Below, in pieces: positions 1,556 to 31,930 of a DNA stretch of 36,298 bases (positions within the stretch are counted from its first letter, which is position 1; each line of letters opens with the position of its first letter). Origin of the DNA: Henriciella sp. (GTDB taxonomy: Bacteria > Pseudomonadota > Alphaproteobacteria > Caulobacterales > Hyphomonadaceae). Position numbers and translations under genes: made by a program. The notes under the pieces are model-generated. The model was not told the origin of the DNA. It saw nothing but the letters and a program-made list of their open reading frames with translations, and did no database searches. Location: the NCBI GenBank assembly GCA_013213825.1, contig JABSQA010000017.1, positions 1,670 to 37,967 on the forward strand. The letters are read 5' to 3'.

Positions 1556-2347
1556 CTAACGCGGCAAGCACAAAGCGCGATTTTTATTCTCGCGGATGAA
1601 ATTTACAATCTCCATGACTTCCGGTGTTTCGGAGAAGGTTGCCGCGGTATCTTCTAGGCGTTCGGAGAATGTACCTTCTTTGGCGTAAAGCATGCGATAA
1701 GCCGATCTTAGGCTGCGAATGGTTTCACGCGAGAATCCACGCCGTTTCAAACCGACAACGTTTAGACCTGCCAAATGCGCATGATTGCCCACGACGGAGC
1801 CATATGGGATGACATCCGCCACCAAAATTGCCCCGCCTCCGACAAAAGCATGATCGCCAATCCGGCACCATTGATGCACCGCGACCGCGCCGCCAAACCA
1901 AACTTGCTCGCCAACCGTCACATGCCCGCCAATGTGCGTGTTGTTGGCGATCACGCATTTATTCCCAAGCACACAATCATGCGCGGCGTGGGTATGCGCC
2001 ATGAATAAACAGTCTTCACCGACTTTGGTCATTCCGCCATGTTCTGGCGATCCCGTGTGCAACGTTGTGTGCTCACGCATGACGGTCCGGGCGCCGACTT
2101 CGAGACGAGAGTCATCGCTTTGCTTATAGCCAAGCACTTGTGGCGGACCACCCAGCACTGACCCTGGATAGACCTCGACCGCCTCATTCAACAGCGTATG
2201 TCCAATCACAGTCGCCTTTGCATGCAGTGTGACATCGTCCTTAAGTACCGCGTAAGGGCCGACATAGGACATCGCCCCAATCGTCACGCCTGTGCCAAGC
2301 TCGGCGCCAGGTTCGACCACCGCTGTCGGATGAATATCGACGCTCAT
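1556..2347 (-). CDS. lpxA: UDP-N-acetylglucosamine O-acyltransferase LpxA
   Basis: LpxA transfers the 3-hydroxyacyl chain from acyl-carrier protein to UDP-GlcNAc, the first step of lipid A synthesis in the cytoplasm. The 263 residues show hexapeptide repeats forming a left-handed beta helix (for example [18 protein letters not shown]). The catalytic histidine lies in [14 protein letters not shown], equivalent to E. coli His125. [20 protein letters not shown] leads into the C-terminal helical bundle. The ATG at 2347 overlaps the lpxD stop as ATGA. In most Proteobacteria fabZ lies between lpxD and lpxA; here there is no room for it. Confidence 0.97.
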
Positions 2348-3351
2348 GCTGGCTTCTTTTTGGTTGCTGCGACTTGTTTTTCAACCCAAGTCACTTCCCG
2401 GAAATACTGGCGTAAAGGCTTCGCGGGAATACCGCCCCAAGTCTCGCCGGGTGGCACATCTTTCATGATCCCAGCTGAGGCAGCGATTTTCGCGCCCGCG
2501 CCAATATTGATATGGTCAGCAATACCGACCCGGCCACCCATGGCGACGCCATCGCCGATCGTGCTGGTGCCGGAGATCCCAGTGAAGCTCGCAATCGCGG
2601 CGTTTCGTCCAATGATCACATTGTGCGCGATTTGGACAAGATTATCGATCTTGGTGCGTTCGCCAATAATCGTGTCATCGAACGCCCCGCGATCAATGCA
2701 CGCATTGGCCCCGATGGTCACAAAGTCCTGAACGATGACCCGCCCCCATTGCGGCACATCTTCCGCACCTTCAGGCCCTAACGTTACCCCAAACCCAGCC
2801 TCTCCGATTACCGTGTTGGCGTAGATTTTTACGTGGTTTCCGATGAGGGCACAGCGGATCACGGCGTTTGGCCCAATGACTGTCCGCGCCCCTATTTGGA
2901 CCCCAGGCCCGATAACTGCGCCAGGACCCATGCGAGCTTCCGCACCGATCGCCGCACCACTACCAATCCGGGCCGATGTTGAGACGTTCGCCGTTGCGTC
3001 AATCGATGGCGCGGGGCCGTCCGCATCCCAATCCTTGAGCTTGTATAAGGCCTCACCAGCAAGCTTATGGGCATAGCGCGGTTGATCGACGACAATCGCT
3101 GTGACCCCATCCGGAAGCCCTGACACGGCGCCCTCTTTGACAAAGCAAGCGCTCGCGTCAGGGCTGGTGCCCCCGGCCTGACGTGGCCCGCCTTCAACAA
3201 AGCATAGATCACCAGCCTTTGCCGCGCCTGCAGCAGAAATTGATGATATTTCAGGGTCTTGGTCCACTTCTGCGCCAATATTGCAAAGACGCAGAAGGGT
3301 TCGCAGAGACTGCGAACCCTGATGTGTGTAGAAGCGCTGATCGATCGGCAT
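2344..3351 (-). CDS. lpxD: UDP-3-O-(3-hydroxyacyl)glucosamine N-acyltransferase LpxD
   Basis: LpxD adds the N-linked 3-hydroxyacyl chain to UDP-3-O-acylglucosamine, the third step of lipid A synthesis. The 335-residue protein (E. coli 341) has the N-terminal uridine-binding domain (about 1-105). It is followed by a long hexapeptide-repeat beta helix (about 110-290) containing [14 protein letters not shown], which holds the catalytic histidine of the family. The C-terminal tail is lysine-rich. The gene follows skp by 16 bases and overlaps lpxA by four. The neighbourhood (bamA-skp-lpxD-lpxA) is the classic outer-membrane biogenesis cluster, apart from the missing fabZ. Confidence 0.97.
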
Positions 3352-3367
3352 TCGCCCCCCGATAAAG

Positions 3368-3961
3368 CTATTGTTGTGGTTGTTGCGTCGGCATCTTCTG
3401 ACGTACCACGTTAATGGTAGGCGTCGCAGCGTTCAACTTGGAAATAACGGACGCCGAAACATCCGTCGCATCATCCACAAACACGACCTGAGATTTGTCG
3501 AGAATGATATTGGCGCCAGTCTCCGCTACGACTTCACGCAGCACCGGAATAAGCGCTTGGTTGAACTCTGCCAGAGCGGCACGTTCGGTCAGCGCCAATT
3601 CGTTTGCAGCGATTTGACGACGTTGCTGGAACACTTGAGCATCGCGCGCCAATTGCTCGACCTCGGCGGTCAGCGCAGCATCCGCCAAAATCGTTTCGCG
3701 GGTCATGCCTTCCGTCTTGGCATCCAAAGCGGTGCCATCCGCCTGCAACTTCGTGGCGGTTGGCTGTAACTCGCCTTGCATCGTGGTTTCGATCGAGGCC
3801 ACTTTATTACGCAAATCTTGGCCAGCTGCGCTTTCGGCGTAGATCTTTACACGGTCAATCACGACCACGGTCGTGCCCTGGGCCATGGCGACCGAGCTTA
3901 GCGCGATGGGCGCAGTGAAGAGCAGCGCAAATGCCGCCATAATTGATTTGAGGGGGAACAT
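3368..3961 (-). CDS. skp: OmpH/Skp family periplasmic chaperone
   Basis: Skp-type chaperones are periplasmic trimers that hold unfolded outer-membrane proteins on their way to BamA. The 197-residue product starts with a clear signal peptide (lysine at 5, hydrophobic stretch to about 25, likely cut near SVAMA-QG). A beta strand ([15 protein letters not shown]) follows, then a long alpha-helical region (about 50-150) typical of the tentacle helices, and a final strand containing [14 protein letters not shown]. The tail is glutamine-rich (QQPQQ). The position 27 bases after bamA and 16 before lpxD is the conserved one. Sequence conservation in this family is low, so the call rests on architecture plus context. 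Confidence 0.92.
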
Positions 3962-20750: not shown

Positions 20751-20867
20751 TTTCGTATCTTTTTGAACAGGTTGGAATTTTTCTCCCTGTTATGCACAAC
20801 CGCCCGGCTTGGCTAGGGGCAAGTGCTGCGCTTGACGTTCCGGCGAATGCGGGCAGGACTAAGGGTC

Positions 20868-21938
20868 ATGCTTTTACTCGATGCTGCGTTTCGATTTTCA
20901 GGGATCACGATCCTGCTACTCGTCGCCTTGATTGTCTTGCGCGACGCACGGCATTTACTGCAAGGGCGGCTAGCAGCGGCCATGTGCATTTGTCTATCGG
21001 GCATGCTGCTTAACACGATGCCGGAATGGTATGGCGCCCCGTTTGCCGTGGTGGCCATCGCCTGGATTATACACATCCCGAATATTATTCTGCTTTGGTT
21101 ATTTGCGCTGTCGCTTTTCCAAGATGATTTTGAGATGCGACGCATTCATTGGGCGGCGCTTGCGGCAACGACCGTATTTGTATTGACCATCCAATCATCG
21201 ATCTATTGGGACATTACACCACTCACCTATGCCTCCATCGCAGCCAATCGAATTCTCGGCTTTTCGGTCCTTGCCCACTTGTTCTGGACCGCCTGGAGCG
21301 GGCGCAATGATGACTTGATCGAAGCGCGACGCCGCACACGGCTCTGGTTTATTCTCGGCTTAGGTGTGACGGCATTCGTAATCATGGCCGGAGAAGCCCT
21401 GCATTACGGCCTGACCTTTGATAATGACGACCCGACTTGGTTTACCACGGCGCGATCCATCATCGCCTTTCCGATGATTATCATCGGGGCGCTTTGGTTT
21501 CTCAAACTTTTGCCCGAAACACTGCTTTTTGAACGCACCACGGCGCAACCCATCTCTCAAGCCAAAGTCGACCCCAAGGACCAGGCCACTCATGCCCGCC
21601 TGGTCTCGATTATGGAGACGGACAAACTTTATCGGGAACAAGGTCTAGGCATTGGCGATCTTGCATCCAAGCTCGGCGTACCCGAACATCAGCTTCGCGC
21701 GCTGATTAATAAGGGGCTCGGCTATCGCAACTTTGCCGCTTTTCTGAATCAGTACCGATTGGCCGAAGCCAAAGCGGTCTTGGCTGACCCTGAACAAGCC
21801 CGGACACCGATTCTCACCATTGCCATGGATGTGGGTTATGCCTCCCTCGCAACGTTCAATCGCGCGTTTAAGTCCGAAGAAGACACGACGCCGAGCGCGT
21901 TTCGCGCCGCCGCCCTGGAATCCGCCGCGCAATCTTGA
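20868..21938 (+). CDS. Membrane-anchored AraC-family transcription regulator
   Basis: The 356-residue product has an N-terminal half of about six to seven hydrophobic helices (about 5-225; for example GITILLLVALIVL and IIHIPNIILLWLFALSLF) and a cytoplasmic C-terminal AraC/XylS-type DNA-binding domain. Two helix-turn-helix units are visible: GIGDLASKLGVPEHQLRALI, and TPILTIAMDVGYASLATFNR followed by TTPSAFR. I chose the ATG at 20868 because AGGA lies nine bases upstream; GTG 20823 and ATG 20847 are alternatives with poorer sites. Signal perception by the membrane part is an inference from the architecture. The next gene is a fatty acid hydroxylase, and direct repeats lie between them, suggesting local control. 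Confidence 0.85.
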   Translation: MLLLDAAFRFSGITILLLVALIVLRDARHLLQGRLAAAMCICLSGMLLNTMPEWYGAPFAVVAIAWIIHIPNIILLWLFALSLFQDDFEMRRIHWAALAATTVFVLTIQSSIYWDITPLTYASIAANRILGFSVLAHLFWTAWSGRNDDLIEARRRTRLWFILGLGVTAFVIMAGEALHYGLTFDNDDPTWFTTARSIIAFPMIIIGALWFLKLLPETLLFERTTAQPISQAKVDPKDQATHARLVSIMETDKLYREQGLGIGDLASKLGVPEHQLRALINKGLGYRNFAAFLNQYRLAEAKAVLADPEQARTPILTIAMDVGYASLATFNRAFKSEEDTTPSAFRAAALESAAQS

Positions 21939-23022: not shown

Positions 23023-23799
23023 AAGCGGTTCTTTTTCATTTGCTTTTTAGCGGCAGCCTTCGGCGCGCTCGCAGACTGCTCAGGGCAGCAATCGCGCGAG
23101 TCAGCGACGATTGCCGTGGCGACCAATTTCAAAACCACGCTAGAGAAGCTCGAATTCGATTTTGAAGCCCGCAGCGGATATGCCCTCAACATCGTCTCTG
23201 GCTCCACCGGCAAACTCTATGCACAAATCATCCATGGTGCCCCATACGATGTCTTTCTCGCTGCTGATCAAGTTCGCCCTGAGCGATTGGTGCAAAATGG
23301 CGCGGCCGATTCAGAGTCGCGCTTCACTTATGCGCATGGCGGACTAGCGCTTTGGGGGCCATCACGTTCCGAAGTCACGCCTGATACGCTTTGGGAGATC
23401 GACATTGCACGTTTCGCGCTCGCCAATCCGGATCTCGCCCCATACGGCGCAGCCAGTCTGCAATTGCTGGAACGTTATGAACGCGTCGAGCTGCTCGAAC
23501 CAAAATTCGTCTATGGCGAAAGTGTCGGACAGACCTTCGCCTTCATTCGCACAGGCAATGCTGAGCTTGGTTTTGTTGCCGCATCTCAAATTCTTGCTCT
23601 GCCTGAAGCTCATCGCGGCGGCTATTGGTTGGTGCCGCGTCAGCTCCATGACCCAATCGCACAAGACGCCGTCTTATTAAATCGCGGCGTTGACAATCCA
23701 GTCGCATCCGCCTTCCTGACCTATCTCCGTTCCGACGACGCGAAAGAGATCATTCGCGAGAGCGGTTATTGGAATGCATATGGAGACTGGGTCGAATGA
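23020..23799 (+). CDS. modA: Molybdate ABC transporter substrate-binding protein ModA
   Basis: ModA captures molybdate (or tungstate) in the periplasm for the ModBC channel. The mature part starts TIAVATNFKTTLEKL and includes SGSTGKLYAQIIHGAPYDVF and FLAADQVRPE. These are the ModA oxyanion-site regions, of the ATNF subtype. Upstream in frame is KRFFFICFLAAAFGALADCS, a good export signal. It could be cut after ALA by signal peptidase I, or at the Cys as a lipoprotein, although Asp before Cys is unusual. The usual start codons fall only after this signal (GTG 23116), so I use ATT 23020 with AGAGGA upstream (259 residues). It overlaps modB as ATGA. Confidence 0.85.
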   Translation: MKRFFFICFLAAAFGALADCSGQQSRESATIAVATNFKTTLEKLEFDFEARSGYALNIVSGSTGKLYAQIIHGAPYDVFLAADQVRPERLVQNGAADSESRFTYAHGGLALWGPSRSEVTPDTLWEIDIARFALANPDLAPYGAASLQLLERYERVELLEPKFVYGESVGQTFAFIRTGNAELGFVAASQILALPEAHRGGYWLVPRQLHDPIAQDAVLLNRGVDNPVASAFLTYLRSDDAKEIIRESGYWNAYGDWVE

Positions 23800-24476
23800 G
23801 CTTGCCAGATCTCACAGCCCTATGGCTCACGGCGCGTCTGGCTTTTGTCACGACTCTCGTCCTGCTCGTGTTCGGCACGCCGCTAGCCTGGTGGCTGGCG
23901 CAGACGAGGTCGCGGTTCAAACCCGCCATTGAAGCGATTATCGCCCTGCCCCTCGTGCTTCCTCCGACTGTGCTTGGCTTCTATCTTCTGATTGCGATGA
24001 GCCCGAATGCGCCCTTCGGTGAGTTTTGGATGGCGGCAACGGGCGACACGCTCAGTTTCTCATTCACCGGCCTCGTTATCGGCTCCGTCATCTATTCCTT
24101 CCCGTTCATGATTCAGCCGCTGCAAAGCGCTTTTGAAGGCCCCGTTCAGCAAGCGATGCGAACCGCTGCCAGCCTTCGCGCCTCTCGGCTGGACGCGTTC
24201 TTTTCGGTCGCACTCCCCATGTCCGTCCGCGGATTTGTCACGGCGACGGTCCTTTCTTTCGCCCACACGCTCGGGGAGTTCGGTGTCGTTCTTATGGTCG
24301 GCGGGAATATCCCTGACCGCACGCGTGTCGCTTCAATTGAAATTTATGAGAATGTTGAGACGCTAAATTATGGCGACGCCCATGCGCTTTCACTGATCCT
24401 GCTGATCATCTCATTCATCACGCTGTTCTGCGTCTTCCTATTCAACAAACGGTTCCCAGCGCATGTCCGGCTCTGA
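23796..24476 (+). CDS. modB: Molybdate ABC transporter permease ModB
   Basis: ModB forms the membrane channel for molybdate import. The 226-residue protein has about five to six membrane helices and ALPLVLPPTVLGFYLL, a hallmark of ModB. The EAA loop that docks ModC reads around AMRTAASLRASRLDAFFSVA, and SFAHTLGEFGVVLMVGGNI follows near the C-terminus. The ATG at 23796 overlaps the modA stop (ATGA); the longer open frame from 23769 would only add modA-overlapping residues. It overlaps modC by 14 bases. Confidence 0.96.
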   Translation: MSLPDLTALWLTARLAFVTTLVLLVFGTPLAWWLAQTRSRFKPAIEAIIALPLVLPPTVLGFYLLIAMSPNAPFGEFWMAATGDTLSFSFTGLVIGSVIYSFPFMIQPLQSAFEGPVQQAMRTAASLRASRLDAFFSVALPMSVRGFVTATVLSFAHTLGEFGVVLMVGGNIPDRTRVASIEIYENVETLNYGDAHALSLILLIISFITLFCVFLFNKRFPAHVRL

Positions 24477-25554
24477 GCTCACCCTCTCTGCTGAGATCGC
24501 ATTGGACGATTTCACCCTGACCGTTGACGAGCACGTGTCGCTGAACGGTGTGACGGCCGTGTTCGGCCCGAGCGGGAGCGGTAAGACCAGCCTGCTCAAT
24601 CTTGTCGCTGGCTTTCTTCGCCCCGACCGCGGTGAGATTTCTTTTGGTGATGAGATCTGGGCGAAAACCGAACCAAAAGCCTGGGTGCCGCCGCACCGAC
24701 GGCCGGTTGGGACTGTCTTTCAAGACGCGCAGCTTTTTCCGCACCTCTCAGTCCGTGGTAATCTCGACTATGCTGATAAGCGTGCGGACAAAACTGCGCC
24801 CGGGCATGCGCGAACGAAAATCATCGACGCCATGGCGCTCTCGCCATTGCTCAACCGCACGGTGCAAACGCTTTCGGGTGGCGAGCGCCAACGCGTCGCC
24901 ATAGCGCGGACCCTGCTCACACGCCCGCGACTTTTGCTGCTCGATGAGCCGCTTTCTGCCCTCGACGGTGCGCGTAAAGCAGAACTCCTGCCCTTCCTCG
25001 AGACACTGAAGACCGAATTTGCACTGCCCACGCTCTATGTGTCTCACGATGTTGATGAAGTCAGCCGGATCGCGGACCGGGTCATGATGCTAGAAGCTGG
25101 CCGCGTCATCGCCACCGGGCGAACAGATGACGTGCTGAGCCGCTTTGGTCTGGAAGCTGGACGAAACCCCTATGAGCAGGCCGCCTTTCTCAGCGGTGTG
25201 ATTGATCAAGAGGCTGCGCGCGACGGATTGATCGCGGTGCGCATTGGCGAGGCAACGATATGGCCCGCCGCCAATGTGGATCTAGCGAGTGGCGCGCGCG
25301 TATCCTTAAAAATTCCCGCACGCGATGTTTCAATCGCTCTGGAGGAACCGACCGGGATCAGCATTCAAAACATGTTGTCGGCATCGGTGGTCGCGATCGA
25401 GCCAACAAAGCGGCCCGCCTTTCAAACCGTCACGCTTTCTGTGGGCGACCAGACCATACTCGCAACCGTGACCCGCAAAGCGGTCACGGACCTTGCACTC
25501 GCGCCCGGGCGGGCGGTCTTTGCTTTAATCAAAAGCGCGACCTTCCACCACTAG
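24463..25554 (+). CDS. modC: Molybdate ABC transporter ATP-binding protein ModC
   Basis: ModC drives molybdate uptake. The 363-residue protein has an ABC domain with Walker A GPSGSGKTSLL, Q-loop VFQDAQLFPHLSV, signature LSGGERQRVAIARTLL, Walker B LLLLDEPLSALD and H-loop YVSHDVDEV. It is followed by a C-terminal molybdate-binding (TOBE/Mop-like) domain (about 290-360, with ISIQNMLSASVVAIEP). That regulatory domain allows inhibition by bound oxyanion in characterised ModC proteins. No modE regulator or molybdopterin gene is seen in the window. It converges on the DUF1622 gene with an eight-base gap and no obvious terminator. Confidence 0.96.
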   Translation: MSGSELTLSAEIALDDFTLTVDEHVSLNGVTAVFGPSGSGKTSLLNLVAGFLRPDRGEISFGDEIWAKTEPKAWVPPHRRPVGTVFQDAQLFPHLSVRGNLDYADKRADKTAPGHARTKIIDAMALSPLLNRTVQTLSGGERQRVAIARTLLTRPRLLLLDEPLSALDGARKAELLPFLETLKTEFALPTLYVSHDVDEVSRIADRVMMLEAGRVIATGRTDDVLSRFGLEAGRNPYEQAAFLSGVIDQEAARDGLIAVRIGEATIWPAANVDLASGARVSLKIPARDVSIALEEPTGISIQNMLSASVVAIEPTKRPAFQTVTLSVGDQTILATVTRKAVTDLALAPGRAVFALIKSATFHH

Positions 25555-25562
25555 GCCGGCGC

Positions 25563-26000
25563 TCAAGCGTGCTGCTTGTCCTGCGCGTGTTGAATCTCCA
25601 ATATCTCGCGGCCAAGAAAGAAGGAAATCGCAGTCCGGATGAGCACTAAGAGACCGACAAAGATCAGGTCTGTCAGCTCTCGCGTAATCACCGTATGGAT
25701 GATGTCTGACGCGATCATGAATTCGAGCCCGGTCAGGATGTAGGTCCCGAGAATGGTGCGTGCAGCGCTGAGGTTTGAGAGATTTTTGGTCAACCCAATC
25801 CCGTGCCGAAGTCCGGCCAGCAATCGAAACAAAGCCACGAAGAACCCAAACAAGATCAAAGCCACGCCAATCAGATCAATACAGATCGCCAGCCCTTCGA
25901 GCGCATGCGCAACGGGTTCATCAAGGCCAAAGGGCAAATGTTCAAGCGATGTGCCACCGGTCATCCCGTCCATGATGTGACTTTGTTCCTCGGCGCTCAT
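25563..26000 (-). CDS. DUF1622 family small membrane protein
   Basis: The 145-residue protein has three hydrophobic helices (about 32-60, 80-102 and 108-128). The spacing, the central RLLAGLRHGIGLTKN and the end LVLIRTAISFFLGREILEI resemble the DUF1622 family of uncharacterised inner-membrane proteins. The first 30 residues are polar and contain several Met and His residues. The ATG at 26000 shares one base with the stop of the Rieske-ThDP gene (TGATG), so it is the second gene of that unit. GTG 26003 is an alternative. A membrane anchor or partner for the upstream enzyme is a reasonable inference, not something the sequence proves. Confidence 0.8.
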   Translation of the reverse strand: MSAEEQSHIMDGMTGGTSLEHLPFGLDEPVAHALEGLAICIDLIGVALILFGFFVALFRLLAGLRHGIGLTKNLSNLSAARTILGTYILTGLEFMIASDIIHTVITRELTDLIFVGLLVLIRTAISFFLGREILEIQHAQDKQHA

Positions 26001-27994
26001 CACAAGAGCTCCGCATCCGTGACCACTTCAACCAAGCTCGGCCCATCATGCGCGATCGCTTTAGCCAAGGCTTCGTCGAGTTGCTCACGTGTTTTGACAA
26101 GCTCGCCCATGCCACCGCATGAGCGGGCAAAGCCAGCAAAGCTCGGATTGACCAGACTTGTTTGCCAGACTTCAAACTCTGCCGCTTTTTGTTCTTTCGA
26201 GATTTTTCCGAGCTCAGAATTGTTCATCAAGACATGCGTGATGTTCATCCCGTATTTGACCGCCGTGGTGAATTCCATCGCATATTGGCCAAAGCCACCA
26301 TCGCCAGAAACCGAAATGACTTTGCGGCCTTTATAAGGACCGTCTTCCTGTGTCGCAGCCCACGCGCCCATCGCGGCCGGGAAGGAGAAGCCGATCGACC
26401 CAAGATAGCCCGACATCAAGACACGTTGCTGCCCAGTCGGCTCAAAGTAACGGCCAAAGGAGTAAGTATTATTGCCGACATCCACCGGCAGGATGGCATC
26501 TGCTGGCGTTGCGCGCGTCAGCGCTTCGAACAAGGCGGCAGCAGAGACGCCTTTGCCGCGATCCTCCGCGACACGGCTTGCCTTTTCCGCGCGCCAAAGT
26601 TTCCAACGCTCGGCGACTTCACCGCGCGCATCTATGGCCGAAGCGCCGCTATCCTTCAGCGCCGCGTGGAACAGATCCGCCGTCACGCCGACATCGCCCA
26701 TGACTGGCACCGTCACCGGATGGCGTTTTGCCAATCGCATCGGATCTGTGTCGACCTGGATGGTCGGCGCGCCCTCATAGATGCCGGTATGGTCAGAGAA
26801 ACTTGATCCAAATACAAGCAGCAAATCGGCTTCATTCATAAACCAGCTGGCAATCGGCGTCCCGGACCGCCCCATCACACCCGCAGCGAGTGGGTGATCA
26901 TCGCCGATCTGACCTTTGGCTTTAAACGTTGTCGCAACCGGCGCCCCGAGTTGCTCAGCCAAAGCTGTGACTTGAGCCATTCCGTCTTGTGCGCCATAGC
27001 CGACAATGATCATGGGCCGTTTGGCGCTTTTCAGGAGCGTCATCGCCTCACCCACCGCGGATGGCGGTGGGGCGACAGTAAGGTCCGCCATTCGACCAGT
27101 TGGGTTGTAAGCTTTCGCGCCGTCGGCCGCTGGTTTTGGCTGCACATTGTCAGGGAAGACCAAGTGCCCGACGCCGCGCTTCAAGATCGATGTCTTGATC
27201 GCTTGCGTCATGAGGAGCGCATGATCAGACGTCAGATGCACCGTTTCAGAGAACTCGGCGACAGCTTCAAAGGCCGCTTCGAGATCTATGTCTTGGAACG
27301 CGTGTACGCCGACGACTTGGTCTTGCACCTGCCCGGTCAGCGCCAAAGCCGGAGCGCCATCGACTTTGGCGTCCCATAGGCCGGTCAGCAAATTGGTTGC
27401 ACCGGGACCTGCGATTGTCAGAGCCGCCGCAGGCTTTCCTGTCAGCTTGCCATAGCCCGAAATCGCGAAGGCCGCGCCGCCTTCGTGTCGAATGCCATAA
27501 TATTTGAGTTTGCCCTCTGCTTCTTGCATTCGCAGCGCGTCGGCCAAGCCGAGATTTGAGTGACCGACCATGCCAAAGACGCTGGTCACGCCCCAATTGG
27601 TCATGGTCTCAGCCATAACGTCAGCAATCGTTCGCTCGCGTGGTGGCAAGGCCGGAACACCGACATAGACCCCGTCATCGCGGATATCGACGTCGAACAT
27701 CTCCTGGCCCGTATCTTCATGTCCGCCCGGTGGCTTACCGGTCAGCGGATCAAAGTCCCAGCCATGCCAAGGACAGCGCAACCAGCATTGGCCTTCTATG
27801 CCTTCTTCGATCGATCCTTCGCCTAAAGGCCCACCTTGGTGGGGGCATTTATTGTCCATGGCCGCATACTGGCCTTTAAAATGTACCAGCGCGACCGACT
27901 GTGTTCCCGCCGTGGCCGATTTCACGCGGCCTTCAGCCACTTCTCCCGGTTCAGCGACCTTGTGCCATATCAAAGTGGTTGTGTTCTTAGACAT
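26000..27994 (-). CDS. Fusion of a Rieske [2Fe-2S] domain to a ThDP-dependent pyruvate oxidase/acetolactate synthase-like enzyme
   Basis: The 664-residue protein has two parts. Residues 1-115 are a Rieske-type ferredoxin with Cys50-x-His52 (CPHQGGPLGEG) and Cys74-x2-His77 (CPWHGWDF). Residues 120-664 form a complete ThDP enzyme. It has the activating Glu171 in GIRHEGGAAFAISGYG, GPGATNLLTGLWDA, a central domain, and the C-terminal GDGGFGQYAMEF (564-575) with NN at 591-592, the Mg/ThDP motif. It looks most like the pyruvate oxidase (PoxB)/acetolactate synthase group. Ordinary members carry no iron-sulfur domain. I infer that electrons from 2-oxo acid decarboxylation leave (or arrive) through the Rieske centre. 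The substrate is unknown. The start ATG is preceded by GAGGGG. It is divergent from the second Rieske operon. Confidence 0.9.
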   Translation of the reverse strand: MSKNTTTLIWHKVAEPGEVAEGRVKSATAGTQSVALVHFKGQYAAMDNKCPHQGGPLGEGSIEEGIEGQCWLRCPWHGWDFDPLTGKPPGGHEDTGQEMFDVDIRDDGVYVGVPALPPRERTIADVMAETMTNWGVTSVFGMVGHSNLGLADALRMQEAEGKLKYYGIRHEGGAAFAISGYGKLTGKPAAALTIAGPGATNLLTGLWDAKVDGAPALALTGQVQDQVVGVHAFQDIDLEAAFEAVAEFSETVHLTSDHALLMTQAIKTSILKRGVGHLVFPDNVQPKPAADGAKAYNPTGRMADLTVAPPPSAVGEAMTLLKSAKRPMIIVGYGAQDGMAQVTALAEQLGAPVATTFKAKGQIGDDHPLAAGVMGRSGTPIASWFMNEADLLLVFGSSFSDHTGIYEGAPTIQVDTDPMRLAKRHPVTVPVMGDVGVTADLFHAALKDSGASAIDARGEVAERWKLWRAEKASRVAEDRGKGVSAAALFEALTRATPADAILPVDVGNNTYSFGRYFEPTGQQRVLMSGYLGSIGFSFPAAMGAWAATQEDGPYKGRKVISVSGDGGFGQYAMEFTTAVKYGMNITHVLMNNSELGKISKEQKAAEFEVWQTSLVNPSFAGFARSCGGMGELVKTREQLDEALAKAIAHDGPSLVEVVTDAELL

Positions 27995-28033
27995 TTGTTT
28001 ACCCCTCGCTTGCTTTTCGCTGACCTATCGGAA

Positions 28034-28056
28034 TTATCTATGTTAGGCATATAAAA
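28034..28056. promoter_or_regulatory. Inverted repeat in the divergent Rieske promoter region; candidate operator
   Basis: TTATCTATG (28034-28042), five spacer bases and CATATAAAA (28048-28056) form an imperfect palindrome with seven of nine half-site positions matching. It sits within the 154-base gap between the divergent Rieske-ThDP and Rieske-GltB-like genes, in its most AT-rich part, close to where promoters of both units would be. No regulator gene lies next to it, so the binding protein is unknown. Confidence 0.3.
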
Positions 28057-28148
28057 CGTCGATCACATTTTTTTGGGCGGACGTGATTGGCGTGTCATGG
28101 GCTCACTCGATAGAGGCCAGGCAAACATTTAAGAGGGGTAGCAATCAA

Positions 28149-29765
28149 ATGAACAAAACGGCTATTGCCAAATGGGACGATCTTCAAGACCGCCAACCTG
28201 AATACGCCATTATTGACGAAGTCGACTTGGTCGTCGTCCGTTTCGACGACACTGTGTCCGTCTTCTCTGGTCGCTGCCTCCACCGTGGCGCGCTAATGTC
28301 TGACGGCCATGTTGACGCCAATGACAATCTGATCTGCGGTGTCCACAATTGGGATTATCGGCTCGATAGTGGCGTTTCCGAGTATGAGAATTCTGAAGCG
28401 CTGCCAAAATTCCGGGCTTGGATCGAAAATGGCGAAGTGCTCGTCGATGCTGATGAAATCAATGCCTGGGGGCATGCCAATCCGCAGCCCTATCAGCGCG
28501 ATGACTATCTCGGTCTGTATCAAGACCCGAGCCATGCGCCTCACCCGGAACCCACCAATAGTCTCATTCAACAATATGCACGCGATGGCCTGAGCAAAGT
28601 TGGCCATCATGGTATTACCGACTCGATGGGCGTACCGCGCGCGGATCTGCCGAAATGGGATGATATTCAAATGATCACGGCGCAGCTGCACAAAATGCCG
28701 CTGCTGGATGACGAGCCGGTCGATACGAAAACCGTGATCGGCCCAAATGCGCAAAAACCACTCGAGCTCGACATTCCGCTTTTCGTCTCGGACATGAGTT
28801 TCGGGGCGCTATCAGAACCGGCCAAAGTCTCCCTGGCCCGCGGTGCGGAGCTCGCGGGCACAGGCATCTGCTCCGGCGAAGGTGGGATGTTGCCCGAAGA
28901 ACAAGAAGCCTGCTCACGTTATTTCTACGAACTCGCCTCAGGCCGTTTTGGGTTTTCCTGGGACAAGCTCGACAAAGTCCAGGCCTTCCACTTCAAAGGC
29001 GGCCAAGGCGCCAAGACCGGCACAGGCGGGCACCTCCCCGGCAATAAAGTGAAGGGCAAAATCGCTGAAGTCCGCGGCTTGAAAGAGGGCGAAGCGGCGA
29101 TCTCGCCCCCACGTTTTCCTGACTGGACTGATTGTCTGCAAGTGAAAGACTTTGCCGACGAAGTTCGCGACCGCACCGGCGGAATCCCCATCGGTTACAA
29201 ACTGTCCGCACAACACATTGAGAAGGATATCGAAGCTGCGCTACTGGTCGGGGTCGATTACATTATCCTCGACGGTCGCGGTGGTGGCACAGGCGCAGCG
29301 CCTATCATTTTCCGAGACAATATTTCGGTCCCGACCATCCCAGCTTTGGCGCGCGCCCGGAAATTCCTGGATGAGTCAGGTCGTGGCGATGGCGCTCTCC
29401 TCAGCACAGGTGGGCTGCGAAAACCGGGAGATTTCGTGAAGGCTTTGGCGCTCGGCGCGGATGCCGTCACGGTCTCCAACGCGGCGATGCAGGCCATTGG
29501 CTGTATCGCCATGCGCGCGTGCCACACCAATAATTGTCCGGTGGGTATCGCGACGCAGAAACCGCATCTGGTCTCGCGCCTCGTGATCGAAAAGTCCGCG
29601 CATCGCTTGAAGAATTTCTTCGAAGCCTCAACCGATCTGATGAAAGTCATGGCGCGCGCGTGCGGGCACTCAAAACTCAGCGATTTCAATATGGATGATC
29701 TTACCACGTTTAGCCGCGAGATGTCGGACCTCTCTGGTGTTGCCTATGCGGGAGTTGGGCGATGA
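28149..29765 (+). CDS. Fusion of a Rieske [2Fe-2S] domain to a glutamate synthase-type FMN/3Fe-4S domain
   Basis: The 538-residue protein starts with a Rieske domain (about 1-102; Cys43-x-His45 and Cys63-x2-His66, 17 residues apart). Residues 140-520 form the FMN-binding synthase barrel of GltB: DMSFGALSEPAKVSLARGAE, TGTGGHLPGNKVKGKI, EAAISPPRFPDW, ILDGRGGGTGAAP. The 3Fe-4S cluster loop is GCIAMRACHTNNCPVG with Cys452, Cys458 and Cys463. The glutaminase and C-terminal beta-helix domains of full GltB are absent, and no GltD is nearby. It may therefore not be an ordinary glutamate synthase. I infer that the Rieske centre feeds electrons to or from the FMN. The ATG at 28149 is preceded by GAGGGG. 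The stop overlaps the next gene (ATGA). Confidence 0.9.
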   Translation: MNKTAIAKWDDLQDRQPEYAIIDEVDLVVVRFDDTVSVFSGRCLHRGALMSDGHVDANDNLICGVHNWDYRLDSGVSEYENSEALPKFRAWIENGEVLVDADEINAWGHANPQPYQRDDYLGLYQDPSHAPHPEPTNSLIQQYARDGLSKVGHHGITDSMGVPRADLPKWDDIQMITAQLHKMPLLDDEPVDTKTVIGPNAQKPLELDIPLFVSDMSFGALSEPAKVSLARGAELAGTGICSGEGGMLPEEQEACSRYFYELASGRFGFSWDKLDKVQAFHFKGGQGAKTGTGGHLPGNKVKGKIAEVRGLKEGEAAISPPRFPDWTDCLQVKDFADEVRDRTGGIPIGYKLSAQHIEKDIEAALLVGVDYIILDGRGGGTGAAPIIFRDNISVPTIPALARARKFLDESGRGDGALLSTGGLRKPGDFVKALALGADAVTVSNAAMQAIGCIAMRACHTNNCPVGIATQKPHLVSRLVIEKSAHRLKNFFEASTDLMKVMARACGHSKLSDFNMDDLTTFSREMSDLSGVAYAGVGR

Positions 29766-29992
29766 GCGAATCGACGACCAATCTCTTCGTGACCGCGATC
29801 GGGATCTATTTCCTGATCGGCTTTTTCGTGGGTCTGATCTACATGTTCGGCGGCGCCGGGCGGATTGATCCAGCCGCGAAAGGCAAAGGTCTGCCATTGC
29901 GTGTTCGCTTGCTCATCCTGCCCGGCACGATTGGGCTTTGGCCGATCATGCTGATGAAACTGTTCGTGCAGAAGGAGCCACCGGTCTCATGA
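29762..29992 (+). CDS. Small two-helix membrane protein of the Rieske operon
   Basis: The 76-residue product is not one I recognise. It has two hydrophobic helices (about 8-30, FVTAIGIYFLIGFFVGLIYMF; and about 50-67) joined by a basic loop (GRIDPAAKGKGLPLRVR). By the positive-inside rule the loop would be cytoplasmic. The start and stop overlap both neighbours as ATGA, so it is clearly translated as part of the operon. It could be an assembly factor or small subunit for the cytochrome b protein encoded two genes on; this is inference from position. Confidence 0.75.
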   Translation: MSESTTNLFVTAIGIYFLIGFFVGLIYMFGGAGRIDPAAKGKGLPLRVRLLILPGTIGLWPIMLMKLFVQKEPPVS

Positions 29993-30138
29993 AACGCGCG
30001 CACCGAAAATCTCATCTTCTACTTTGGCTGGTCCTTGGGCCTGTGATGTTTGCGACCATCATCCTCGCCGTGCTCAACCGCCCGGCCGCGCCCGTAAATG
30101 ACGCGCTGCCGGACGCCCTGATTGAGGAGGCAAACTGA
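29989..30138 (+). CDS. 49-residue single-helix membrane peptide of the Rieske operon
   Basis: The product is a basic N-terminus (MKRAHRKSH), one hydrophobic helix (about 10-29, LLLWLVLGPVMFATIILAVL) and a short acidic tail ending PDALIEEAN. The ATG at 29989 overlaps the stop of the 76-residue gene (ATGA), and its own TGA overlaps the next ATG (TGATG). GGAGG lies just before that next ATG. The tight coupling on both sides is the main support for a real gene at this size. No family is recognised; small single-helix subunits are common in respiratory cytochrome complexes. Confidence 0.7.
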   Translation: MKRAHRKSHLLLWLVLGPVMFATIILAVLNRPAAPVNDALPDALIEEAN

Positions 30139-31184
30139 TGTCTCACGATTACAAAGCGGTTCAGTGGACGCCGTTTAAGAAACGCTTCGATCTTTGGATG
30201 CTGGCCGGCATCATCCTGTATCTTATAGGATTTATTGTGGTCGGCGAGGTCACCCAACCCCCAGGCGAGAGCATTCATCCCGTCCAAGCGGTGATGCGGG
30301 CAACGGGCACGCTCGCCTTTCTGCTGCTGACTTTCATCCTTTGTATTGGTCCGCTCGCGCGGATGACGGATCGGTTCAAACCCTTCCTCTATAATCGCCG
30401 TCATCTTGGCGTGACGACCTTCCTGATCGGCCTGATCCATGCCGCTTTGGTGATGATGTGGTATCATGGCTTCTCAGAGACCAACCCATTCGTCTCGCTC
30501 TTCATTTCCAATCCCCGTTATGAAAGCCTGTCTGGATTCCCCTTCGAAGTCCTCGGATTTGGCGCGTTGTTGATCATGTTCCTAATGGCCGCCACCAGCC
30601 ATGATTTCTGGAATGCCAATCTCGGCCCTGGCGTTTGGAAAGCCCTGCATATGGGTGTGTATGTGGCCTATGCGCTGCTGATCGCTCATGTCGCGCTCGG
30701 CGCGATCCAGTTTGAGAAGAGCCCAGCCTATGTGGGTCTGCTGGTGGCCGGCGCGACGAGTGTATTCGCGCTACATGTTGGTACCGGCATGATGACGCTG
30801 CGGGGACGTGATCGACCAGAAACAGATGGCTGGCTCAAAGTCGCTAATGTGACGGATATGGAAGACGCACGCGCCAAGATTGTGCGCCCGGCAAAGGGTG
30901 AAGCGATCGCGATCTTCCGAGATGGAGATAAAGTCTCAGCCGTTTCGAATGTCTGTCGCCACCAAGGCGGGCCATTGGGCGAAGGAAGAATCGTCGATGG
31001 CTGCATCACGTGTCCGTGGCATGGCTTCCAATACCGTATGGAAGATGGCCAATCGCCACCGCCCTTTACCGAGAAAATCGCCACATATGCGACACGGATT
31101 ATAGACGGTGTGGTCTATGTAAACCCTGAGCCCAACGTACCGGGGACCCCGCAAACGCCCAGCCAGATTGGAGCCACCTCATGA
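30138..31184 (+). CDS. Ferric-reductase-like transmembrane cytochrome b fused to a C-terminal Rieske domain
   Basis: The 348-residue protein has six membrane helices (about 19-218) resembling the ferric reductase/MsrQ-type heme domain. Histidines are placed as two heme-ligand pairs, His89/His101 and His171/His184, on two helices. A cytoplasmic Rieske domain follows (about 232-330; Cys273-x-His275, Cys292-x2-His295, CPWHGFQY). FAD and NAD modules of classic ferric reductases are absent; the Rieske domain replaces them as the electron-entry module. The positive-inside pattern puts the Rieske domain in the cytoplasm. Its HQGGPLGEG/CPWHG core closely resembles that of the Rieske-ThDP protein. I infer electron transfer across the membrane; direction and partner are unknown. 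The gene overlaps both neighbours. Confidence 0.87.
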   Translation: MSHDYKAVQWTPFKKRFDLWMLAGIILYLIGFIVVGEVTQPPGESIHPVQAVMRATGTLAFLLLTFILCIGPLARMTDRFKPFLYNRRHLGVTTFLIGLIHAALVMMWYHGFSETNPFVSLFISNPRYESLSGFPFEVLGFGALLIMFLMAATSHDFWNANLGPGVWKALHMGVYVAYALLIAHVALGAIQFEKSPAYVGLLVAGATSVFALHVGTGMMTLRGRDRPETDGWLKVANVTDMEDARAKIVRPAKGEAIAIFRDGDKVSAVSNVCRHQGGPLGEGRIVDGCITCPWHGFQYRMEDGQSPPPFTEKIATYATRIIDGVVYVNPEPNVPGTPQTPSQIGATS

Positions 31185-31930
31185 GCAAAGATGACTTTTT
31201 CATCGGCTGGGCTGAACCCCCAAAAGTCGATCGACGTTTCTTTCTCGGCACGGGTCTGGGCCTCATGGCAGGCACCGCCGCGACAGCGGCTGGTGTCGCG
31301 GCGCTGCAACGACCCGTTGGCCCGGGCGATTGGAATATGGGCGAGATCCGCGAATGGCGCGGCATCGCGACCGCAGAGCCTTATGGCATGCTCCGCACGC
31401 TCGACTTAGACGGTACGCCGCGCACCGCTCTGCTTGGCTGCCAGGGCAAATGCGGCGTGAGCGCTAAGATTGGTGCACTCGCGGGTAAGCCCGTCATCGT
31501 AAAAGGTTCTCTGATCCAACGGGGTCCGCACACGATGATTGCGGTTGTCGACGGCCTCGATTGGATCCGCGAAGACACAGGTGGGACGATAGGCGACCTT
31601 GCCTTCCCCTCCCCGGAACCGCTTTTCGAAGCCACTCTGAATGGTGAGATACTCGACAGTAAATGCTGGTTCGGCGCGATGCGGCCTTCAGAGGGCAAAG
31701 TCCATAAGTCTTGCGCCAGCCTCTGTATTCGCGGCGGCATTCCGCCCGCCTTCTATGTCAAAGACCGCAAAGACCAAAAAGCGCTGATAATTATGACGCC
31801 AGGCGGATATGGGCATAACAAAGATCTCCTCCCCTTCGTGGCTGACCCGGTTGCCATTACCGGACAGATCCAAAGGTTTGGAGATCTCTTTCTGCTTGAT
31901 GCGCCCGTGAGCGCGATCAATCGGATCTAA
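31181..31930 (+). CDS. Tat-type cysteine-rich periplasmic or membrane-anchored protein, last gene of the Rieske operon
   Basis: The 249-residue protein has a twin-arginine-like signal (DRRFFLG at about 17-23 followed by an Ala/Gly-rich hydrophobic stretch to about 41) after an unusually long, polar 16-residue n-region. The exported part has five cysteines in two groups: Cys87-x3-Cys91 (GCQGKCG) and Cys162...Cys178-x3-Cys182 (KCWFG, HKSCASLCIRGGIPP). Such paired Cys-x3-Cys and the nearby His175 could bind a metal or cofactor, and Tat export fits a protein folded with cofactor in the cytoplasm. It is not a recognisable MsrP, although its place after an MsrQ-like cytochrome gene is similar. Its start overlaps the cytochrome gene (ATGA). 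Confidence 0.75.
   Translation: MSKDDFFIGWAEPPKVDRRFFLGTGLGLMAGTAATAAGVAALQRPVGPGDWNMGEIREWRGIATAEPYGMLRTLDLDGTPRTALLGCQGKCGVSAKIGALAGKPVIVKGSLIQRGPHTMIAVVDGLDWIREDTGGTIGDLAFPSPEPLFEATLNGEILDSKCWFGAMRPSEGKVHKSCASLCIRGGIPPAFYVKDRKDQKALIIMTPGGYGHNKDLLPFVADPVAITGQIQRFGDLFLLDAPVSAINRI

Follow-up and report, generated by a model that had tools for sequence, protein, structure and literature searches.

Two divergent operons encoding three Rieske fusion proteins in Henriciella: a candidate modular one-electron network

Two divergent operons at positions 25563-31930 of a 36,298-nucleotide stretch of DNA from Henriciella sp. (GCA_013213825.1, contig JABSQA010000017.1; the whole stretch is referred to below as the window) encode three distinct Rieske fusion proteins, in which the domain is joined to a thiamine diphosphate (ThDP) enzyme, to a glutamate synthase-type (GltS) barrel of the flavin mononucleotide (FMN)/3Fe-4S kind, and to a YedZ/MsrQ-like cytochrome b with a ferric reductase domain (FRD). 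The association of these parts is well supported as real, conserved and spread over several phyla. The components are of known kinds, and the FRD-Rieske and CDGSH-GltS architectures have already been published; the new architectural result is that the iron-sulfur head is exchangeable between Rieske and CDGSH. We tentatively propose, with slightly less than even confidence, that the operons specify a modular one-electron [2Fe-2S] network in which the oxidation of a 2-oxo acid is linked to a flavoenzyme of the GltS type and to a transmembrane cytochrome, whose periplasmic partner has an oligonucleotide/oligosaccharide-binding (OB) fold.

Results

The Rieske-ThDP fusion (26000..27994, minus strand; 664 amino acids) is a pyruvate-oxidase-like 2-oxo-acid enzyme in which the Pfam domains TPP_enzyme_N, M and C follow an N-terminal Rieske domain (PF00355; residues 10-87, 27734..27967, minus strand). 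The Rieske-GltS fusion (28149..29765, plus strand; 538 amino acids) joins Rieske and Glu_synthase domains and carries the C-x5-C-x4-C motif of a [3Fe-4S] cluster, and the FRD-Rieske cytochrome b (30138..31184, plus strand) joins a Ferric_reduct domain to a C-terminal Rieske domain (PF00355; residues 232-306, 30831..31055, plus strand). Pfam Rieske E-values in the three fusions are 4.8e-16, 5.7e-12 and 8.2e-16, and the window genome has eight Rieske matches in total, three of them at this locus. The C-x-H...C-x2-H ligand motif is kept in 33/33 ThDP, 24/24 GltS and 91/91 FRD full-length members; these sets include the window and consist of matches through the whole window protein with its head, so that CDGSH-headed relatives are left out of them. 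An earlier interpretation made from the letters alone (the sequence-only reading) had described three Rieske motifs fused to different catalytic modules in operons whose every junction overlaps, and both descriptions hold, the overlaps being 4, 4, 4, 1 and 4 bases. It had also named assembly artefacts as something that would refute it; full-length members with the motif exist elsewhere, and all three fusions therefore recur outside this assembly. Its statement that none of these modules normally carries a Rieske domain was too strong: FRD-Rieske appears in PMC3591440, and a GltS barrel with [2Fe-2S] CDGSH heads in PMC3174974 (both papers are cited throughout from a part of their text).

The distribution of the set was traced from the Cys-rich protein encoded after the cytochrome. 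An alignment scan of the genome collection gave at least 581 confirmed relatives of this protein, and the 80 loci considered here are the best 80 of these, those closest to the protein of the window; they are mostly metagenome-assembled genomes and belong to Alphaproteobacteria, Gammaproteobacteria, Planctomycetota, Acidobacteriota, Bacteroidota, Rhodothermia, Calditrichia and a few other groups. By tblastn, 77 of the 80 loci have an FRD-Rieske gene as well; of the remaining three, L150 ends at a contig edge, L203 has a gene labelled FRDR by clustering, and L193 has none. In a survey of 372 genomes of the class, the cytochrome was found in all 15 other genomes with a full-length Cys-rich protein and in 16 of the 371 other genomes overall. 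The two enzymes are less frequent neighbors: Rieske-ThDP is present in 16/80 loci (with partial matches in L191 and L193), GltS in 15/80 (L140 ends before the head and L198 is in two pieces) and both in 9/80, and gene clustering labels extra fragments below these cut-offs in L142 (GltS) and L204 (ThDP). The divergent order of the window recurs in four alphaproteobacterial loci (L132, L144, L151 and L154). One locus of Planctomycetota (L165) and one of Acidobacteriota (L182) have the enzyme genes next to each other and diverging from the membrane genes.

Fifty whole genomes were picked from those of the 80 loci after the gene content of the loci had been seen (the 30 loci outside this set include several near-duplicates and four with both enzymes), and two of the fifty, those of L193 and L203, gave no tblastn match to FRD next to their Cys-rich gene. 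Among these 50, 19 encode Rieske-ThDP and 15 the GltS enzyme, and Rieske-ThDP is present in all 15 GltS genomes (p 1.7e-9); the GltS match spans a Rieske head in 14 of them and a tandem CDGSH head is found in the other, G426. The class sample comprised 385 genomes, the window's own and 384 others, and among the latter 15 have a full-length Cys-rich protein, eight a full-length Rieske-GltS and 14 a Rieske-ThDP at a threshold of E 1e-120, including G346, whose head is lost at a contig end. In hypergeometric tests by genome and by genus, the latter being the deepest level of kinship correction, the overlaps were seven genomes for GltS and Cys-rich (p 2e-10 and 4e-7, respectively), six for GltS and ThDP (2e-8 and 3e-5) and six for ThDP and Cys-rich (3e-6 and 9e-4). 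G123 and G227 each carry the three loci on three separate contigs, and because co-occurrence is unlinked there, the association extends beyond physical linkage. Among the matches listed from a search of 72,556 plasmid records, a head-spanning Rieske-ThDP occurs in five and a full Rieske-GltS in three haloarchaeal records, all three of them within the five.

The ThDP enzyme resembles PoxB, SpxB and YdaP (pyruvate oxidase, pyruvate:quinone oxidoreductase), which are its best relatives by NCBIfam and by PDB sequence. The best model is pyruvate oxidase PRK08611 (383.6 bits against a cut-off of 742), PRK09124 scores 283.5 against 792, and the closest PDB entry by sequence is E. coli PoxB (3eya, E 6.5e-58); all three TPP_enzyme domains are present, and the HEG motif with the catalytic glutamate is found in 33/33 members. 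It differs from these enzymes in falling far under the curated equivalog thresholds, in its N-terminal Rieske head, in having LGK for LGF, and in ending without a C-terminal membrane tail. The tail of PoxB is considered missing because the alignment to the 572-residue chain 3ey9 stops at residue 530, two residues before the end of the fusion, and because none of 20 ThDP open reading frames (ORFs) has a C-terminal extension of more than 15 residues. In the alignments, the conserved LGK lies at the position of the LGF of PoxB, in which the phenylalanine presumably has a functional role. The likeness to pyruvate oxidases, the HEG and LGK motifs and a chain end close to that of the PoxB core together suggest that the Rieske head is the likely electron exit, replacing the quinone tail.

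In the GltS enzyme, the barrel matches Glu_synthase (PF01645) with E 3.2e-88 and the C-x5-C-x4-C motif is kept in 24/24 full-length members. The FMN barrel and the cluster motif are common to this protein and the NADPH- or ferredoxin-dependent glutamate synthases (GltB and Fd-GOGAT), whereas the window enzyme is a stand-alone barrel with a [2Fe-2S] head of its own; Pfam finds no glutamine amidotransferase domain in it, and only the Rieske domain precedes the barrel. The listed ORF begins at a GTG at 28083, and an ATG behind a purine-rich stretch at 28149 is the probable true start; counted from there, the ORF reading leaves 154 bases (27995..28148) between the divergent operons.

The cytochrome has six hydrophobic segments and matches Ferric_reduct (PF01794) above the cut-off (E 4.8e-15), while the MsrQ model reaches its FRD domain only below threshold (E 5.7e-11, 42.3 bits against a cut-off of 130). 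Its C-terminal Rieske head should be cytosolic, because the positively charged loops lie on the side of both termini. Residues H89, H101, H155, H171 and H184 are kept in 16/16 sequences. From the position and spacing that we take the first canonical histidine to have, R87, also present in 16/16, would correspond to the YedZ arginine. With H101, H171 and H184 it gives the YedZ pattern of PMC3591440, in which an arginine stands in place of the first canonical histidine of transmembrane segment 3 and the other three histidines are retained. Two small genes lie between those of GltS and the cytochrome and have no Pfam family: one encodes a 76-residue membrane protein (29762..29992, plus strand), of which a relative was detected in 65/80 loci, and the other a 49-residue protein (29989..30138, plus strand; relatives in 27/80) with one hydrophobic segment and a positive N side, which is predicted to be single-pass. 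In favor of the network proposed here, L206 (positions 1705-3882, genome G216) has, after FRD-Rieske, a fourth type of Rieske fusion, with an NADPH-dependent FMN reductase (PF03358), instead of the Cys-rich gene; at E 1e-40, G216 and G114 are the only ones among 289 genomes surveyed to have this fusion.

The Cys-rich protein (31181..31930, plus strand) is N-anchored and predicted to be periplasmic, its soluble domain covering about residues 45-249. C162, H175, C178 and C182 are invariant in 17/17 rows obtained free of the scan pattern and in 56/56 rows of a larger set, where C162 is partly guaranteed because the pattern includes it, the other three residues lying outside. The AlphaFold2 model (predicted local distance difference test score, 91.3) comprises an N-terminal helix and two barrels aligning best with OB folds, and the Cys3His residues lie on helical insertions of the second barrel. 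Pfam and NCBIfam gave no family match, a sequence search of the PDB just four rows at chance level (best E 0.46), and Foldseek with the model nothing under E 1e-3; in a VIA structure comparison the best Z, 7.3, was inside the background described for the tool. The sequence-only reading had called this a Tat-type (twin-arginine translocation) protein, and the designation survives in part: a pair of arginines occurs within the first 40 residues in 36/56 relatives and is thus not universal. Where present, a Tat-like signal would suit a protein folded in the cytosol around a cofactor.

This partner and the cytochrome invite comparison with MsrPQ (YedYZ): there, as in the window, one operon encodes a heme membrane protein of the YedZ type together with a partner exported to the periplasm. 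The window differs in that its cytochrome is under the MsrQ cut-off and has a cytosolic Rieske head, and in that a two-OB-fold Cys3His protein without a family match takes the place of a recognized molybdoenzyme like MsrP. We also noted a small family (about 138 to 158 amino acids) at around position 1400-1900 of L025-L035, with a Cys/His stretch (C..H..C..C) like that of the Cys-rich protein; in several of these loci it adjoins a second Cys-bearing protein and a SCO1/SenC-like gene (by Pfam on L034). Neither small Cys-bearing protein has a Pfam family, and the row may point to a role with copper or another metal.

Relatives of both enzymes reveal exchange of the iron-sulfur heads, in direct support of the exchangeability that the sequence-only reading had supposed. 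The GltS barrel stands behind two CDGSH motifs instead of a Rieske domain in the class genomes G022, G202, G211 and G287 and in G426, and loci with this tandem-CDGSH form are L112-L115 and L205. CDGSH-headed barrels are 64-68% identical to the Rieske-headed barrel (66-68% between the window barrel and the four class relatives). A tree of 34 barrels places the CDGSH forms of the four class genomes in a single clade (100/99) nested among Rieske-headed rows; seven rows, these four and three with Rieske heads, group together with support of 96/91, and two label changes are enough to account for all three labels. Five Rieske-ThDP relatives carry additional heads in front of the Rieske domain: two CDGSH domains in L106, and CDGSH-Fer4_19-CDGSH in L107, L108, L109 and L124, where CDGSH, Fer4_19-like, CDGSH, Rieske and the full ThDP enzyme form one chain (by Pfam on L107 and by motif in the other three). 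Extra CDGSH heads were found on ThDP in 5/7 class genomes lacking a full-length Cys-rich protein and in 0/6 with one (p 0.02; G346 left out), a link that is suggestive only. The domains added or substituted are all iron-sulfur carriers, which argues for electron transfer as the function of the heads.

Discussion

Our combined results are consistent with the following scheme. The cytosolic ThDP enzyme would oxidize a pyruvate-like 2-oxo acid and pass the electrons one at a time to its Rieske domain; in the Rieske-GltS enzyme, electrons would be exchanged among its own Rieske head, the 3Fe-4S cluster and FMN, most likely for the reduction of a 2-imino or 2-oxo acid. The cytosolic Rieske head of the cytochrome would occupy the place where NOX and FRE enzymes carry their flavin dehydrogenase domain, and the YedZ-type cytochrome b may carry electrons across the membrane to the two-OB-fold periplasmic partner, with its putative Cys3His metal or Fe-S site, and on to a periplasmic acceptor. 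In its boldest form, the scheme would be a trans-envelope pathway, not described before, that is powered by the oxidation of 2-oxo acids and needs neither NAD(P)H nor quinones; exchangeable His-ligated [2Fe-2S] heads (Rieske or CDGSH) would be the standard plugs that join the ThDP and GltS-type enzymes to a cytochrome and to a novel Cys3His OB-fold redox protein of the periplasm. This form is possible, although we think it more doubtful than not. If the parts do work together, they would provide a general route by which carbon metabolism sends electrons singly to the periplasm, with no need of NADPH dehydrogenase domains, and a physiological setting for FRD-Rieske cytochromes and CDGSH- or Rieske-headed glutamate-synthase-like enzymes, groups to which the available portions of PMC3591440 and PMC3174974 assign no function.

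Several findings weigh against a single network. Neither enzyme is present in 31 of the 50 genomes with a Cys-rich gene, and a full-length Cys-rich match is missing from 8 of the 14 class genomes that encode Rieske-ThDP; two of the eight class genomes with Rieske-GltS (G289 and the 67% complete G074) lack Rieske-ThDP at the threshold used. None of the five plasmids with the ThDP fusion carries an FRD domain, the host chromosomes not having been searched. The central domain of the ThDP fusion matches PF00205 and may or may not bind FAD. G426 combines a CDGSH-headed GltS with Rieske-ThDP and the cytochrome/Cys-rich pair, and because of this combination head type does not strictly follow the partner; the same genome refuted the idea, drawn from the class sample (0/4 against 7/8, p 0.01), that CDGSH-headed GltS never occurs with the Rieske set. 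In a tree of Rieske heads, those of GltS form one clade (99/86) and those of ThDP and FRD fall on the other side, but this does not show the latter two to be sisters, since another, unrelated Rieske protein of the window genome lies on the same side and the bootstrap had not settled. The co-occurrence foreseen by the sequence-only reading is far above chance, even where the genes are unlinked; that all the genes form one fixed set is not supported.

These gaps would be expected of a toolkit and not a pathway: the cytochrome/Cys-rich pair would work by itself as a redox device of the envelope and draw on donors of its own, and the Rieske enzymes would be separate cytosolic devices that the same genomes tend to acquire. 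The genomes without either enzyme, the ThDP genomes without the Cys-rich protein, the enzymes on haloarchaeal plasmids without FRD and the envelope-lipid neighbors (patatin, OpgC and hydrolase-VTT) beside the pair in other lineages all speak for this explanation, which we nevertheless consider unlikely in view of the invariable company of GltS and ThDP in the 15 genomes, the unlinked co-occurrence in G123 and G227, and the clustering of all parts in loci of three phyla. The heads might instead tune the enzymes, by redox sensing or as structural elements, and carry no catalytic electrons. Swappable heads would fit sensing too, but the ligand motif is kept without exception in the full-length members of all three families, and replacements and additions are other Fe-S domains; such a role appears very improbable.

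The direction of flow could also be the reverse, the cytochrome taking electrons from quinol or a periplasmic donor for the cytosolic Rieske heads, with the GltS-type enzyme reducing 2-imino acids and the ThDP enzyme running reductively. Rieske proteins of respiratory complexes accept electrons from quinols, and an aminotransferase gene follows the Rieske-GltS gene in L103. Set against this are the position of the Cys-rich partner, which is predicted on the far side of the membrane, the pyruvate oxidases, to which curated models and PDB sequences bring the ThDP enzyme closest, and the outward movement of electrons from cytosolic NADPH in FRE and NOX (PMC3591440), and we judge reverse flow to be quite improbable. 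A periplasmic metal reductase, in which the FRD-Rieske/Cys-rich pair reduces or handles copper or iron in the manner of FRE and STEAP and the enzymes merely supply electrons, seems improbable as well. The FRD superfamily does hold ferric and cupric reductases (PMC3591440), the first OB domain of the Cys-rich protein resembles SilF (Z 5.7) among many OB rows, its smaller homologues stand in a row with the SCO1/SenC gene, and YHS-domain genes are neighbors in 10 of 118 clustered loci; yet SilF is tied with many OB folds and not above them, Foldseek offered nothing under E 1e-3, and no metal transporter was noticed among the neighbor clusters examined, which were not a full survey. An apparent copper hint, a gene of L042 annotated as a CopD family protein, was discarded, the gene being UPF0093/HemJ-like by both Pfam and NCBIfam.

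Earlier work covers the parts more than their combination. PMC3591440 includes FRD-Rieske among its architectures (model M4), with the same combination of ferric reductase and Rieske domains as the window protein; in the portion available, that paper names no Cys-rich, ThDP or GltS partner and no function. The type 5 CISD of PMC3174974 carries two CDGSH domains in tandem on the FMN domain of a glutamate synthase. It belongs to the same barrel family, in which the four class CDGSH forms nest among Rieske forms, and differs from the window protein, whose head is Rieske; within the same limits, that paper states no association with a ThDP enzyme or a cytochrome. Its CDC-type type 7 CISD (CDGSH-DUF1271-CDGSH) has the same make-up as the CDGSH-Fer4_19-CDGSH cassette that heads some ThDP relatives, here fused to Rieske-ThDP, and PMC5859297, likewise available in part, reports CDGSH together with Glu_synthase, Fer4_19 and Rieske domains; the accessible text of neither paper mentions fusion of the cassette to Rieske-ThDP. 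Our searches of PubMed Central, the sole basis for statements on absence from print, found no description of the assembled set, of the Rieske/CDGSH swap on one barrel, or of its link to the ThDP enzyme and the cytochrome. The fusions travel together in several bacterial phyla, and the two enzymes are found in salt-loving archaea too. Records that look like cultured organisms hold one half of the set each, the pair in Asticcacaulis (L155) and the two enzymes in Halorarius (L039). The natural swap of Rieske and CDGSH on one enzyme offers a direct test of CDGSH cargo in bacteria.

Genes around the set suggest an envelope role without pointing to a substrate, and the neighbor clusters, which differ between lineages, yielded no common one. 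A Na/H exchanger family occurs in 14 of the 118 clustered loci, and one lies beside Rieske-ThDP in the haloarchaeon Halorarius too; such neighbors were seen in L132, L140, L144, L148, L151, L094 and L039, with PF00999 in the three tested. YHS, TANGO2, DinB, hydrolase-VTT and acyltransferase neighbors come mostly from Planctomycetota and Acidobacteriota, and patatin mostly from Hyphomonadaceae. A group consisting of an alpha/beta-hydrolase-VTT fusion, TANGO2 and a DinB-like protein, complete or with members missing, neighbors the cytochrome pair in L152, L162, L165, L171, L172, L179, L180, L186, L191 and L204, and spans Planctomycetota, Acidobacteriota, Rhodothermia and Bacteroidota records.

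In the window itself, the minus-strand operon also encodes a small DUF1622 membrane protein (25563..26003, minus strand; PF07784, E 7.6e-18), whose gene overlaps that of Rieske-ThDP. The sequence-only reading had counted it as a member of the set, but it occurs in only one of the 80 loci (L198) and is not part of the core. Directly beside this gene end those for a solute-binding protein, a permease and a TOBE-domain ATPase (23116-25554), which have the look of a molybdate-type ATP-binding cassette transporter. Farther out, a fatty acid hydroxylase (PF04116; 22009-22884) adjoins an AraC-type regulator (20823-21938).

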